Of a stretch of DNA of 26,459 nt, positions 14,264-18,556 are shown piece after piece. Made by a program: the position numbers and the translations under genes. The DNA is taken from the IMG/VR virus record IMGVR_UViG_3300004154_000361, positions 1-26,459 of that record; one strand, given 5' to 3'. Below the pieces are notes generated by a model, which saw only the letters and a program-made list of their open reading frames with translations, was not told the origin of the DNA and searched no databases. The first letter of the stretch is position 1. Every line of letters begins with the position of its first letter. This DNA is from a virus.

Positions 14264-15784
14264 TTACCTAGCCATACTTTGTACTGCTTTTGCCTTTTTC
14301 TTGCTGCCATCTTGAATCATTTCAGCAAATCCAGTTGTTGCATCTGGAGCATCATCATGAGCGTTCTTGCCTTTTCGCTGATATTTACACATGTCCTTAT
14401 AATACTCTGGCCATCTATCAGCCCAATTAATAGGAAAGTATACATGCTCCATAACAAATGAGCTATTTGATATTATTCTTGATATTTTATTAGCTGATTG
14501 ATGGAACCACTTGATTACTACTTTTCTTGTTTTGAACTTCTCCCAGATAAGTCTTTGTACATTACGTGCAAAACCACGACCACCATTATTACTTTCAATA
14601 TTTGCGATACTTACATCATTTTTAACCAATATATCTGCTGTTTCAGGCTCAGTGATTTCCATGCCTTTATCAGTATAATATACATCAGTTACATAACCCT
14701 CACCATTGTATTTATATCCAACAACCACACATAATTTATCTGTGCCTTCATCAGCAGTATCTGTATATGAGATTATTTCTTCATATACAAGATTTCCTTT
14801 TTCATCCCTTGGCAGCTCAGTATATGTCTTAAAATATGAATACAATCTGCCTTGTGCATCAATTGGCTCCTGCTCATAGTTAGCAATAGCAATTTCTTTT
14901 GACATCATTCCAGGCTTAGTTTTATTCAAATAACTTTCATAGCTTAGGAGCTCTGGACAAAGCATTTCCTTTTTTTCTTTACTCAAACATGCCTTAAGTC
15001 TTAGCTCATACCACTCTTCTGGTTCAAGTTCTAGCAATTTACCACATATGTCTTTAGTGCTCCATCTTGTCATTATGATTATTTGAATTGCATTTTCTTC
15101 AAGCCTAGACAAGAATGTATCAGTATACCAGCTCCAATGACCTTCAAGTAAACTTTCATTTGCAGCTTCAGAAGCATTTTTAATCTGGTCATCTATGATA
15201 CCAATATTACAACCGACACCAGTAACCGTACCATTAAATGATGTAGCCAAGTAGTTAAAAAATTGACCTTCCAGAGACCACAACATGGATGATGCATCCC
15301 CATATTTTATCTTTGTTTTAGGGAATACATCTCTGAATATATTAATTTTAGGATCAACCTTTGTTGCATCAATCCCATCCCTGACAGCTTTACCAAACCT
15401 TGAAGCAAGTGTTTCATTATATGAGCATGATATAATTCGGTTTTCATTGTTTTTACCAAATGCCCACTGGGCAAACATAGTAGCACTAAAAGATTTACCA
15501 TGACGTGGAGGCTCATTAAGGATCATCTTTTTGCAGACTATATATCCTGATAATCCTTCAGTAGAATCAACTATTGTCCATTGATCATCTGGCTTATACT
15601 TAATAATGCGACCTTCAAGTAAAGCTTGAAATGTATCACTAATCTGCTTTAGATGCCACCGTGACTCCTTGAAAAACTTTGGATGTATGAGTTTGCAATA
15701 TTCCCATAATGACTCTTGAGCTTTAATATATTCACTTTTTTCTTTCGATTTTGCTATATCGCTTAAAATACTCATATTATCCAT
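14264..15784 (-). CDS. terminase large subunit
   Basis: TTG at 15787 and ATG at 15784 are both possible starts; the ATG gives 506 residues. The ATPase half has the Walker A variant NEPPRHGKS near residue 92, the Walker B strand IGIIDD near 195 and the coupling motif IIIMTRWS near 236. The C-terminal half shows the RNase-H-like nuclease with acidic residues in SYTDTADEGTD near 350, IESNNGGRGFARNVQR near 403 and the final NAHDDAPDATTG near 483. It is the motor that cuts and packages DNA through the portal; in Mu-like phages packaging is headful and starts in flanking host DNA. The small subunit is probably the gp27-like gene upstream. Confidence 0.95.
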   Translation of the reverse strand: MDNMSILSDIAKSKEKSEYIKAQESLWEYCKLIHPKFFKESRWHLKQISDTFQALLEGRIIKYKPDDQWTIVDSTEGLSGYIVCKKMILNEPPRHGKSFSATMFAQWAFGKNNENRIISCSYNETLASRFGKAVRDGIDATKVDPKINIFRDVFPKTKIKYGDASSMLWSLEGQFFNYLATSFNGTVTGVGCNIGIIDDQIKNASEAANESLLEGHWSWYTDTFLSRLEENAIQIIIMTRWSTKDICGKLLELEPEEWYELRLKACLSKEKKEMLCPELLSYESYLNKTKPGMMSKEIAIANYEQEPIDAQGRLYSYFKTYTELPRDEKGNLVYEEIISYTDTADEGTDKLCVVVGYKYNGEGYVTDVYYTDKGMEITEPETADILVKNDVSIANIESNNGGRGFARNVQRLIWEKFKTRKVVIKWFHQSANKISRIISNSSFVMEHVYFPINWADRWPEYYKDMCKYQRKGKNAHDDAPDATTGFAEMIQDGSKKKAKAVQSMAR

Positions 15785-15829
15785 CAACTCTCTTACATCT
15801 ATAAATCTATGTATATATGATTTCTTTCT

Positions 15830-15859
15830 ATTGTACCCCCGTTATAACGCGTTATAACG
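15830..15859 (-). promoter_or_regulatory. 20-bp perfect palindrome beside a -10-like element (candidate late promoter/operator)
   Basis: Two tandem copies of the self-complementary word CGTTATAACG fill 15840-15859, making a perfect 20-bp palindrome; a third partial copy (CGTTAT) lies at 15861-15866. Four bases downstream on the coding strand is TACAAT (15835-15830), a good -10. No proper -35 is present, as in activator-dependent phage promoters. It lies 46 nt upstream of the terminase ATG. Confidence 0.5.
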
Positions 15860-15900: not shown

Positions 15901-16047
15901 TTATTTAAGGCTTTTCCAGTAAGGATGATTTATTTTTCTAAGGTGCCAACATTTCTTTTTTATACATTCTTTTTTCTTTAGCATCTTTACTGACAAATGA
16001 ATTTTATGAAGCTTACAATATCCACAAGGGTTTCTTATCCATTTCAT
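15901..16047 (-). CDS. tiny Cys/Trp-containing basic protein
   Basis: The ATG at 16047 follows AGGTGAATTT. The product has 48 residues: NPCGYCKLHKIHLS near the start, KKECIKKKCWHLRK near 26-39 and a terminal NHPYWKSLK. Four cysteines in a C-X2-C-X16-C-X4-C layout with nearby His residues look like a small zinc-binding fold, and the protein is strongly basic, so nucleic acid binding is likely. It is 11 nt after the other tiny ORF and about 115 nt ahead of terminase. No family was recognised. The good ribosome binding site and spaced cysteines make it more likely real than chance. Confidence 0.55.
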   Translation of the reverse strand: MKWIRNPCGYCKLHKIHLSVKMLKKKECIKKKCWHLRKINHPYWKSLK

Positions 16048-16058
16048 AAATTCACCTA

Positions 16059-16157
16059 TCAACATTTTGATTTTGGCTTATTACACCTACAACATCTATA
16101 ACCTTCACCTTTGTAAAACTTGATTTTATGTTTGAAAAACAAAATACATTTACTCAT
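16059..16157 (-). CDS. tiny Cys-rich protein (32 residues)
   Basis: The ATG at 16157 is 4 nt behind GAGGTG and follows the intrinsic terminator at once. The product begins MSKCILFFKHKIKFYKGEG and ends YRCCRCNKPKSKC. Five cysteines and a basic composition suggest a metal-binding knuckle. It slightly recalls the zinc-binding Com regulator of Mu, but it is half the length and lacks one Cys of the N-terminal pair, so I do not claim that identity. It is translated in tandem with the next small ORF. Being so short, it could still be an unexpressed frame. Confidence 0.45.
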   Translation of the reverse strand: MSKCILFFKHKIKFYKGEGYRCCRCNKPKSKC

Positions 16158-16173
16158 AAAACACCTCACAATC

Positions 16174-16199
16174 AAAAAATAAGGCTCCCTGGAAGCCCT
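16174..16199 (-). terminator. intrinsic terminator after the NusG-paralogue leader hairpin
   Basis: On the coding strand AGGGCTTC, loop CAG, GGAGCCTT makes an 8-pair stem (two G-U pairs) followed by ATTTTTT. It would end transcripts coming from the middle genes before the late operon unless antitermination occurs. Confidence 0.72.
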
Positions 16200-16221
16200 A
16201 TTTAATCTATGTAAATTTTAC

Positions 16222-16249
16222 AAACTCCTTATCCAAGGGTAAGAAGTTT
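16222..16249 (-). promoter_or_regulatory. 10-bp RNA hairpin upstream of the terminator (possible antiterminator recognition element)
   Basis: In the minus-strand RNA AAACTTCTTA pairs with TAAGGAGTTT over 10 positions (one G-U) around the loop CCCTTGGA. No U-run follows. It sits about 115 nt after the NusG-paralogue stop and 22 nt before the terminator. That is the kind of place where LoaP-type NusG proteins recognise a leader hairpin. Confidence 0.55.
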
Positions 16250-16365
16250 ATTTTAGGGGGGCTGGGCAGGCTTCGCCATTTGGACTTTTTATATCCAACT
16301 TTTCGAATCTGCTACTTTATAACACAAAAAGCCATCTTCATACGACGAGTCAGTATTCAAAAGCT

Positions 16366-16863
16366 TTAAGCTTTGTTTAAAACATTAACTGCAAGTTCAA
16401 TTACTTTTTCATTGCCAGCAACAGTAAATTTTACTTTTGCCCTGAAGCGACGTCTGTCCACTTTTATTATGTTTCCTTCAAATCCCTGAAGTGGACCATT
16501 GATTACTTTTATGTCCTGACCCTCTTGAAAAATATCAGATATTCCAACAAGATCACCATCTCGTGTCAAACTAAATATTGTTTTCATTTCATCTTCACGA
16601 ATTGGTTCTGGACATCCCGATGCACCTTCAAGTATATTTATTACTCCTGGGATACTAGTCAATTCGTAATAATCAGTTGCTTGCATTTCTGTTTGAACGA
16701 AAACATATCCTGGCATTAGAACACGTTCAACTGTTTCCCATACTCCAAATTTTCTCTCGTTTAACAATCTTCTTGGTACAATTGCCTTATACATCTTCTC
16801 AGCAGATTTTTTTACATCCAACTCATTTCCAGTTAAAACATGTAGTACATACCAATTATCCAC
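16366..16863 (-). CDS. NusG-family processive antiterminator (LoaP/UpxY-like paralogue)
   Basis: The frame is open from 16893, but NusG proteins start a few residues before WYVLHV. The GTG at 16863, 5 nt behind GGTGG, gives 166 residues and an 8-nt overlap with the upstream gene. The NGN domain spans about 1-105, with DNWYVLHVLTGNE, RKFGVWETVERVLMPGYVFV and YYELTSIPGVINIL. A KOW domain follows at about 114-160 with INGPLQGFEGNIIKVDRR. These are hallmarks of NusG paralogues that ride RNA polymerase. Core nusG is never in phage packaging clusters, so this is a specialised paralogue. Placed before a hairpin and terminator at the head of the late operon, it is inferred to antiterminate that operon. 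Confidence 0.85.
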   Translation of the reverse strand: MDNWYVLHVLTGNELDVKKSAEKMYKAIVPRRLLNERKFGVWETVERVLMPGYVFVQTEMQATDYYELTSIPGVINILEGASGCPEPIREDEMKTIFSLTRDGDLVGISDIFQEGQDIKVINGPLQGFEGNIIKVDRRRFRAKVKFTVAGNEKVIELAVNVLNKA

Positions 16864-17434
16864 TTGAACCACCAGCCTTTGTTTTAACATCATCAGCTAT
16901 TCGACATATTTTATCGAATAATTCGGGTTCTTTCTCTCTCAGTTCTTTTCCAAGCTCCTGAATCCAAGCTTTCTTATAATCTTCAATTCCCTGCGTATAT
17001 TGCTTCTTATATTTTTCCTTGTAAACATTGCTTCGCTGGATCGCCACCATCAACTTAGCAGCCTTTTCAATTGGCATGTCCTGAATTTCCTCTTCAGCTA
17101 TTGCCATCTTCTGAACCAGTTGATCAACGAACATTGTTGTTGCCAGTTCAGTGGCTTCAATGTCTTTATTGTCCTTTACAGCTTCAAGGAGCATTTCCGT
17201 TTTTAACCGAGCATCTTTTAATCTTTTTATTGCTGTATTATTGCGTATTGCATATCTGCCTATTGCTGATTTGCTTAATGGATAACCTAATGCTGTAATT
17301 TCTATAGCAATTTCATCATATCGCATATAGTCATTTCCAGTTTTCATAAGCATTTCATCTAGCTTTTTTCGAGCATCTTCAGGGAGAGCATCAACTTTCG
17401 AACAAATTCTGGTTCTTTCACGTTCCTTACCCAT
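16856..17434 (-). CDS. Mu gp27-like protein (DUF3486 family), probable small terminase subunit
   Basis: The 192-residue product starts GKERERTRICSKVDALPEDARKKLDEML, then YDEIAIEITALGYPLSKSAIGRYAIR near 41-66, a helix-turn-helix of the type shared by DUF3486 (Mu gp27) proteins. The remainder is helical with a charged C-terminus (ELGKELREKEPELFDKI). In Mu this gene precedes the large terminase gp28, and the family is generally taken as the DNA-recognising small subunit. It overlaps the preceding gene by 1 nt and the NusG paralogue by 8 nt. That NusG paralogue separates it from the large terminase, which is unusual. Confidence 0.85.
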   Translation of the reverse strand: MGKERERTRICSKVDALPEDARKKLDEMLMKTGNDYMRYDEIAIEITALGYPLSKSAIGRYAIRNNTAIKRLKDARLKTEMLLEAVKDNKDIEATELATTMFVDQLVQKMAIAEEEIQDMPIEKAAKLMVAIQRSNVYKEKYKKQYTQGIEDYKKAWIQELGKELREKEPELFDKICRIADDVKTKAGGSSG

Positions 17435-18108: not shown

Positions 18109-18140
18109 TTTTGACCTCCCCTCTACATATTTAAGCAAAT

Positions 18141-18173
18141 AAAAAATCCAAGTGTTTATCTTTCACTTGGATT
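18141..18173 (-). terminator. intrinsic terminator ending the early operon after mor
   Basis: A perfect 10-bp stem, AATCCAAGTG and CACTTGGATT, encloses a 9-nt loop and is followed on the coding strand by TTTTTATTT. It lies 48 nt after the Mor stop. The early transcript should end here, as the Mu early transcript does before its middle promoter. Confidence 0.88.
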
Positions 18174-18220
18174 ATATAAAATCTATATGATATTTTCTTT
18201 TTAAGCATTTAAGGCACTTA

Positions 18221-18556
18221 CTATAGGTTTAATTTGATTTGTCCTACAAGAGGGGATGCTCTTTTCTTTTGAATTATGTCATTGCATATATTCCGTATCT
18301 GTATCTCAGATATATTGTATTTTCTTGCTAGTACTCCGTAGTTATAACCATTAAACTCTTCACGTATTTTCTTATCTCTTAATGGTCTCTCAATAGATTC
18401 ATATTTCTGAAAATATATGTATTGTCCTCCAAATAGCTTTGAGAGCTTAATTGCATTTTCTAATCCTATTTCATTTACTAATTGCTTATATATTTCTGGC
18501 AGATCATTTAATTCTATTTTTGGTTCCAATGACCCCACCTCCTTTATTTTAATCAT
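18221..18556 (-). CDS. mor: Mor-family transcription activator
   Basis: The 111-residue product carries LPEIYKQLVNEIGLENAIKLSKLFGGQYIYF, the dimerisation region of the Mor/C family. The C-terminal helix-turn-helix (IREEFNGYNYGVLARKYNISEIQIRNI) follows. Mu Mor activates the middle promoter by binding a dyad upstream of it and touching RNA polymerase. Two starts compete: ATG at 18556 behind GAGGTTTC, and TTG at 18529 (102 residues) behind AAGGAGG with 8-nt spacing, which is the stronger site. It is the last early gene, followed by a strong terminator, exactly as in Mu. Only one Mor/C gene is visible, so it may serve for both middle and late genes. Confidence 0.88.
   Translation of the reverse strand: MIKIKEVGSLEPKIELNDLPEIYKQLVNEIGLENAIKLSKLFGGQYIYFQKYESIERPLRDKKIREEFNGYNYGVLARKYNISEIQIRNICNDIIQKKRASPLVGQIKLNL

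Follow-up and report, generated by a model that had tools for sequence, protein, structure and literature searches.

The locus described here raises the question of how a transposable phage might time the expression of its packaging, head and tail genes when a single activator gene of the Mor/C family is visible. The DNA analysed, referred to throughout as the window, is a virus record of 26,459 nucleotides (26.5 kb), and profile searches of its gene content identify it as a Mu-like phage of Bacillota type. It encodes a transposase with the Mu C-terminal domain together with a TniB-like AAA protein, and a Mu Gam-like end-protection gene is also present. The late operon is on the minus strand and comprises a holin-like/lipoprotein family gene, a member of PHROG 436, gp27/small terminase, a NusG paralogue, the large terminase, the portal and a Mu F-like gene. 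The original prediction, made from the sequence alone, placed a NusG-family gene between the gp27-like and large terminase genes and proposed that its product, acting through a leader hairpin and a terminator, had been put in place of, or on top of, the step that the C protein performs in Mu. The gene coordinates agree with this placement; the gp27 gene overlaps the start of the NusG gene, and terL is the first large gene behind the candidate switch. The single Mor/C gene is likewise borne out by one Mor-family match. No second activator of the family was found either among the scanned proteins, which represent part of the window's open reading frames, or in the ORF list, though the record may be a fragment. 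In the closest relatives, L001/L002, as in the window, mor is followed by two small genes, gp27, nusG and terL. The features on which the argument turns are as follows, all on the minus strand.

18221-18556, minus strand: Mor-family activator (Pfam Mor, E 2e-16)
18139-18176, minus strand: terminator hairpin (18145-18173) behind mor, with U tract; -11.5 kcal/mol, z -4.7
16856-17434, minus strand: gp27-like / small terminase (Pfam PF11985 Phage_Mu_Gp27, E 2e-25; PHROG 426)
16366-16893, minus strand: loaP-type NusG paralogue, 175 aa (NCBIfam LoaP model, 8f5g, tree)
16264-16358, minus strand: LoaP-associated RNA, divergent RAGATH-28 (RF03052); model R1, 35.2 bits
16340-16356, minus strand: P1 hairpin of this RNA, AUAC-U(bulge)-GA-CUCG-UC-GUAU, with YNCG tetraloop at 16346-16349
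16280-16298, minus strand: P2 hairpin, UUGGAU...GUCCAA, 6 bp; -4.9 kcal/mol, z -3.2
16270-16279, minus strand: AUGGCGAAGC box in the 3' part of the RNA, nearly invariant among the copies compared
about 16220-16251, minus strand: hairpin named in the original prediction; -12.4 kcal/mol, z -3.2
16171-16203, minus strand: intrinsic terminator, 12-pair stem 16203-16177 with U tract; -13.1 kcal/mol, z -2.6
14264-15787, minus strand: terL, large terminase (PHROG 30251, E 3e-151)

The NusG paralogue carries the NusG N-terminal domain (PF02357, 55.4 bits) and a KOW domain (PF00467, 22.3 bits) according to Pfam. It passes the NCBIfam model antiterm_LoaP (NF033641) with 164.9 bits against a cut-off of 125, while falling below the cut-offs for NusG (TIGR00922, 80.4 against 135.7), UpxY (53.6 against 100) and RfaH (38.2 against 144.5); sister phage LoaPs sometimes score less than 125 on NF033641, for example 93.5. 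The top solved structure is 8f5g, which we take to be a LoaP, with E-values of 6e-30 by sequence and 1.6e-43 by profile. PHROG 6386, named transcription antiterminator, also matches the protein, so that phage members of the family have already been catalogued. A tree of 92 proteins pairs the window protein with that of L131 (99/82) inside an all-phage clade of eight (96/90); chromosomal and phage LoaPs interleave, apart from the NusGs of other viruses and from the housekeeping NusGs, which form one clade (99/98). Model search and tree agree in assigning the paralogue to the LoaP type, and on these comparisons it is a LoaP-type antiterminator.

A LoaP would be expected to have an RNA partner, and the original prediction had named the hairpin at 16222-16249. 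This hairpin exists and is stable, but it is missing from the matching gap of the closest relative, L131 (L001 and L131 were compared), and as it is not conserved it is rejected as the LoaP target. The conservation that had been looked for in the leader is found instead in a different RNA immediately upstream, which the original prediction overlooked. It begins 8 nt past the loaP stop codon and occupies the space between that codon and the rejected hairpin. The search used a covariance model, R1, trained on 33 phage copies that did not include the window; across the whole window it gave a single match, at 16358-16264 on the minus strand (35.2 bits, E 3.2e-13, R1 E-values being rough).

The RNA consists of a bulged hairpin, P1, a linker, a second hairpin, P2, and a 3' box, and its helices covary across relatives. 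In the alignment 83% of cells are paired and both sides have changed in 11 of the 13 pairs, with a covariation score of 0.458 against 0.156 for shuffled and at most 0.153 for slid alignments. The outer stem of P1 varies freely in sequence while its pairing is kept (5.0 bp, against 2.06 +/- 0.20 with partners permuted), its bulge of 1-2 nt is nearly always U or UU, and inside it are a G-C and an A-U (or U-G) pair. The loop variants UUCG, UGCG, UACG, UCCG and CUCG all fit a YNCG tetraloop. The P2 helix also covaries. In the 40 non-redundant copies compared, which were gathered by a pattern that requires the box, GGCG(A/G)AGC lies 54-65 nt from the P1 core; its extended consensus, (A/G)UGGCG(A/G)AGC, comes after the linker and P2, and in a few phages it is replaced by GGCGCAGC, GGCGUAGC or GGCAAAGC. 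The P1 subclass of the window is shared with L133 (CAUGC-U-GA-CUCG-UC-GCAUG) and L137. Counting against the reading that we favour, the window P1 is weak alone (-0.7 kcal/mol), its loop is CUCG and not UNCG, and the apical GA-UC pairs are not favoured by energy folding alone. Two further pairings were considered for the RNA. A pseudoknot joining the P1 loop (UUCGUC) to GGCGAA was rejected, since the constant box does not compensate 11 of 40 loop variants, and a general helix between the linker and the bases immediately 3' of the box does not exceed the permuted level (5.45 against 5.21).

Phage LoaP loci were gathered by protein alone, through four scans of viral contigs that yielded 58 representative loci. 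Since an alignment of 24 sequences was too diverse, four subgroup alignments were used for the scans; the window LoaP alone as query gave no matches in the viral contigs. R1 matches at E<0.005 in 48 of the 58 loci, 23 of the 48 being outside the training set, and every one of these matches is on the coding strand, between about -40 and +360 nt relative to the loaP stop. Directly upstream of loaP is gp27 (50/58), Mor lies 1.2-2.3 kb upstream (41/58) and the large terminase comes next in most loci, so that the arrangement of Mor, first late genes, gp27, loaP, RNA and terL seen in the window recurs in dozens of phages. Seven loci that have a NusG gene and lack both gp27 and the RNA are distant NusGs of other viruses. 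Across 196 whole genomes all five R1 matches of at least 23.6 bits adjoin a LoaP gene, the unlinked background reaching 23.1 bits at most. NusG proteins act generally in most cells, and the paralogue might be a general phage elongation factor, with the hairpin and terminator of the original prediction merely ending the upstream transcript; the lack of conservation of that hairpin would suit such a role. We consider this very unlikely, given that the tree and the models group the protein with LoaP and not with NusG, and that the conserved RNA accompanies loaP at this frequency while R1 found no match in the flanks of housekeeping nusG genes.

The model also found no matches in relatives of TerL without LoaP, which indicates that the RNA follows LoaP and not terL. 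Behind the loaP-RNA pair, the terL genes of L131, L137, L145, L150 and L160 on the one hand and of L099, L126, L176 and L185 on the other come from several different PHROG families; the packaging gene thus changes behind a regulatory pair that is retained. These results also bear on a role of the element as a self-cleaving ribozyme or, at the level of DNA, as a pac signal beside the terminase genes. Its position between the small and large terminase genes is what a pac signal might be expected to show, and RAGATH motifs, to one of which the RNA is related as described below, are named for gene neighbours in common with ribozymes. The absence of the element from terL relatives without LoaP, its occurrence beside chromosomal LoaP genes and, for a pure DNA site, the compensatory changes of RNA type all argue the other way, leaving little room for either function.

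Against Rfam, the window gives a full-length match to RAGATH-28 (RF03052) of 21.3 bits, where the gathering score is 45.3. At the gathering level Rfam has no match in the window, and as the score falls short of it the window RNA is a divergent relative and not a member by the Rfam rule; the shortfall also weighs against the reading that we favour. The nusG-terL gap of L001 matches RAGATH-28 with 35.3 bits (E 8e-5) where the window has its weaker match. A search pattern combining both conserved blocks, UUGAUUCGUC and GAUGGCGAAGC, returned 34 loci. In 26 of them a NusG gene lies a short way upstream, while eight are without a NusG gene and look like chance; pattern matches in Rhizobium, Pseudomonas, Nostoc, Bacteroidetes, Arenicella, WOR-3 and Planctomycetes, with no NusG match in the locus, were judged to be chance. 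Ten genomes reached by the pattern match RF03052, nine of them above the gathering score at the spot, and a NusG gene adjoins in all ten. In an unselected sample of 391 genomes there are five RF03052 matches and each is behind a NusG gene, one of the five being G001, around which the class was drawn. Both conserved blocks and their spacing are common to RAGATH-28 and the phage LoaP RNA, while the Rfam structure leaves as an open 10-nt loop the YNCG part that forms the P1 hairpin here. The RF03052 entry in Rfam gives no function, and we found no paper mentioning RAGATH-28 in a search that had subscription papers outside its reach, so an earlier mention is possible.

For an antiterminator to act there must be something to overcome. 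The intrinsic terminator of the original prediction is present with its U tract, although with 12 pairs and not eight; it lies 60-odd nt behind the conserved RNA and precedes terL and the tiny ORFs, which were also correctly described. In phages of the L099 type and in L044 the P1-P2 linker forms 9-15 base pairs with a strand that lies 20-27 nt beyond the box and is followed by U's (AAAAGGAACUG/CGGUUCCUUUU, AGAAGAGCC/GGCUCUUUU and AAACGGAACC/GGUUCCGUUU). This long-range stem encloses P2 and the box and its 5' arm is the RNA's own linker; because the linker forms a U-tailed stem, the RNA in these phages carries its own terminator. Terminators are thus rightly placed in the window and in some relatives. 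Several results count against our reading. The partner-swap test of the long-range stem is positive in score and modest in counts (23 vs 14), a strict scan finds a terminator in 7 of 46 loci (1.1 expected), and the short gap before terL in L131 contains no clear terminator. From the scan and from L131 it follows that the thing being overcome is not uniform. In L131 read-through may concern later or factor-dependent stops, and this is the weakest link of the reading.

The region between the terminator and terL has further features. Two tiny Cys/Lys-rich ORFs, at 15901-16047 and 16059-16157 on the minus strand, have good ribosome sites and, with CRCNKPKSKC and NPCGYCKLHK...CIKKKCWH, a likeness to small zinc-binding proteins; neither has a PHROG match. 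Directly before terL, at 15840-15859, are two abutting CGTTATAACG palindromes (0.15 expected with one mismatch), and the RNA-terL gap of L099-L159 holds (C/G)CGTTTAAAA arrays, with 48 TTTAAA sites against 12.8 expected. It is possible that these palindromes and arrays represent a pac site or a promoter.

The phage-trained R1 also detects RNAs in chromosomal LoaP loci, with 11 of 30 matching at E<0.01 (best 8.8e-13), and the box is again seen in chromosomal LoaP leaders. The phage RNA is homologous to these leaders. Behind the chromosomal LoaP gene of L079 the hairpin is UUUGC-U-GU-UUCG-GC-GCAAG, followed by AUGGCGAAGCUAUGGCC, and in L080, also chromosomal, the RNA leads straight into GACAUAGC...GCUAUGUCUUUUUUU, which reads as a terminator-like end. 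Some chromosomal RNAs are upstream of loaP and not downstream (G147:C8:71415-71521, G001:C5:364426-364537 and G097:C3:165671-165767; L208, L232), which points to autoregulation through a leader in host operons. Such copies, placed as an autoregulatory leader would be in G147, G001:C5 and G097, together with the start of the RNA at or near the loaP stop codon, would fit a LoaP that binds the RNA but mainly regulates its own expression or the translation of the next genes, and not read-through into the late operon. The chromosomal LoaP of B. velezensis, by contrast, promotes terminator read-through (PMC12691694). The terminator built into the RNA of the L099 group, and the persistence of the loaP-RNA pair in front of differing terL families, are also difficult to reconcile with autoregulation as the main role, which we regard as unlikely.

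Upstream, the hairpin behind mor has a -10-like TATAAT at its 5' arm (18171-18176). Of 41 relatives, 24 have a terminator-like hairpin behind mor, against 5.4 expected. In the regions downstream of mor in L099-L192 the 5' arm of this hairpin often contains a -10-like hexamer, and in several relatives a dyad such as AAAGUACUUU, AAAGTACTTT or AAAGCGCTTT lies about 30 nt before the hexamer. A possible interpretation is that the site is a late promoter dependent on Mor and embedded in the terminator of the operon before it, and it may be compared with the middle promoter of Mu.

Taken as a whole, the locus is very likely a late-gene antitermination switch in which LoaP and its RNA act in a Mu-like Bacillota phage. 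Mor would start transcription of the late operon immediately downstream of mor, and the holin-like protein, gp27/small terminase and LoaP would be made first. With too little LoaP, polymerase would halt at the terminator or terminators behind loaP. Once accumulated, LoaP would bind the RNA transcribed right behind its gene, with its bulged YNCG hairpin, P2 and AUGGCGAAGC box, join the elongating polymerase and take it into terL, portal, head and tail genes. Such a feed-forward arrangement would impose a two-step delay with the outcome of Mor-then-C in Mu, standing in for the C step. The idea of a NusG antiterminator in place of the C step thus survives in the LoaP-type protein, a cognate-looking leader RNA and a downstream terminator; only the named hairpin is lost from it. 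Since the protein-RNA pair is kept before the packaging genes in dozens of phages, it probably decides when particles are made.

A wider proposal, which we think reasonably likely, is that RAGATH-28 is the LoaP recruitment RNA, a bipartite target of YNCG hairpin and AUGGCGNAGC box on which the protein acts in both phages and chromosomes, and that LoaP replaces the C activator across a broad group of Bacillota transposable phages. What we propose as new is a known kind of regulator in a phage setting, a nearly invariant second target element besides the published hairpin, and a candidate partner and function for RAGATH-28, an Rfam family that has had neither. LoaP would be extended from metabolite and polysaccharide operons to a decision in the phage life cycle, and the switch could explain the ordering of late genes in Mu-like phages with one Mor/C gene. 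Our literature search, which left subscription papers mostly outside, found no paper tying LoaP to phages, and an earlier mention is possible.

Among known systems, the unrelated Sinorhizobium phage phi3LM21 (MF614628, annotated antitermination protein) also has a NusG paralogue before its terminase genes. The gene (L203, 3848-4516) is 1.2 kb ahead of them with a 220-nt gap behind it, the gene order is not Mu-like and no LoaP RNA was found beside the gene; possibly this is an independent use of a NusG paralogue at the late junction. In lambda, N and Q are phage proteins that let polymerase pass terminators into later genes, N with an RNA hairpin, although they belong to an unrelated protein family, LoaP being a NusG paralogue. 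With phage Mu the window has in common the upstream gene of the Mor family, gp27, other Mu-like genes and the two-step order; the second step of Mu is C acting at a new promoter, whereas here, with no second Mor/C gene seen, antitermination at an RNA is proposed. The closest parallel is the B. velezensis LoaP with the dfn/mln leader, with which the phage shares the NusG-paralogue family (NCBIfam), a leader hairpin of a UNCG-like type (YNCG in the phages) and a downstream intrinsic terminator. The B. velezensis protein binds the UNCG-type hairpin of the dfn leader, which is needed in vivo, passes the downstream terminator by opposing NusA and is reported to have no need for additional factors (PMC12691694). 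Binding and read-through by the phage protein are predicted by analogy; its RNA has, in addition to the hairpin, P2 and the nearly invariant AUGGCGAAGC box. The target in B. velezensis is polyketide genes and in the phage the packaging-head-tail operon and, unlike in B. velezensis, the phage loaP lies inside the operon that it would control.
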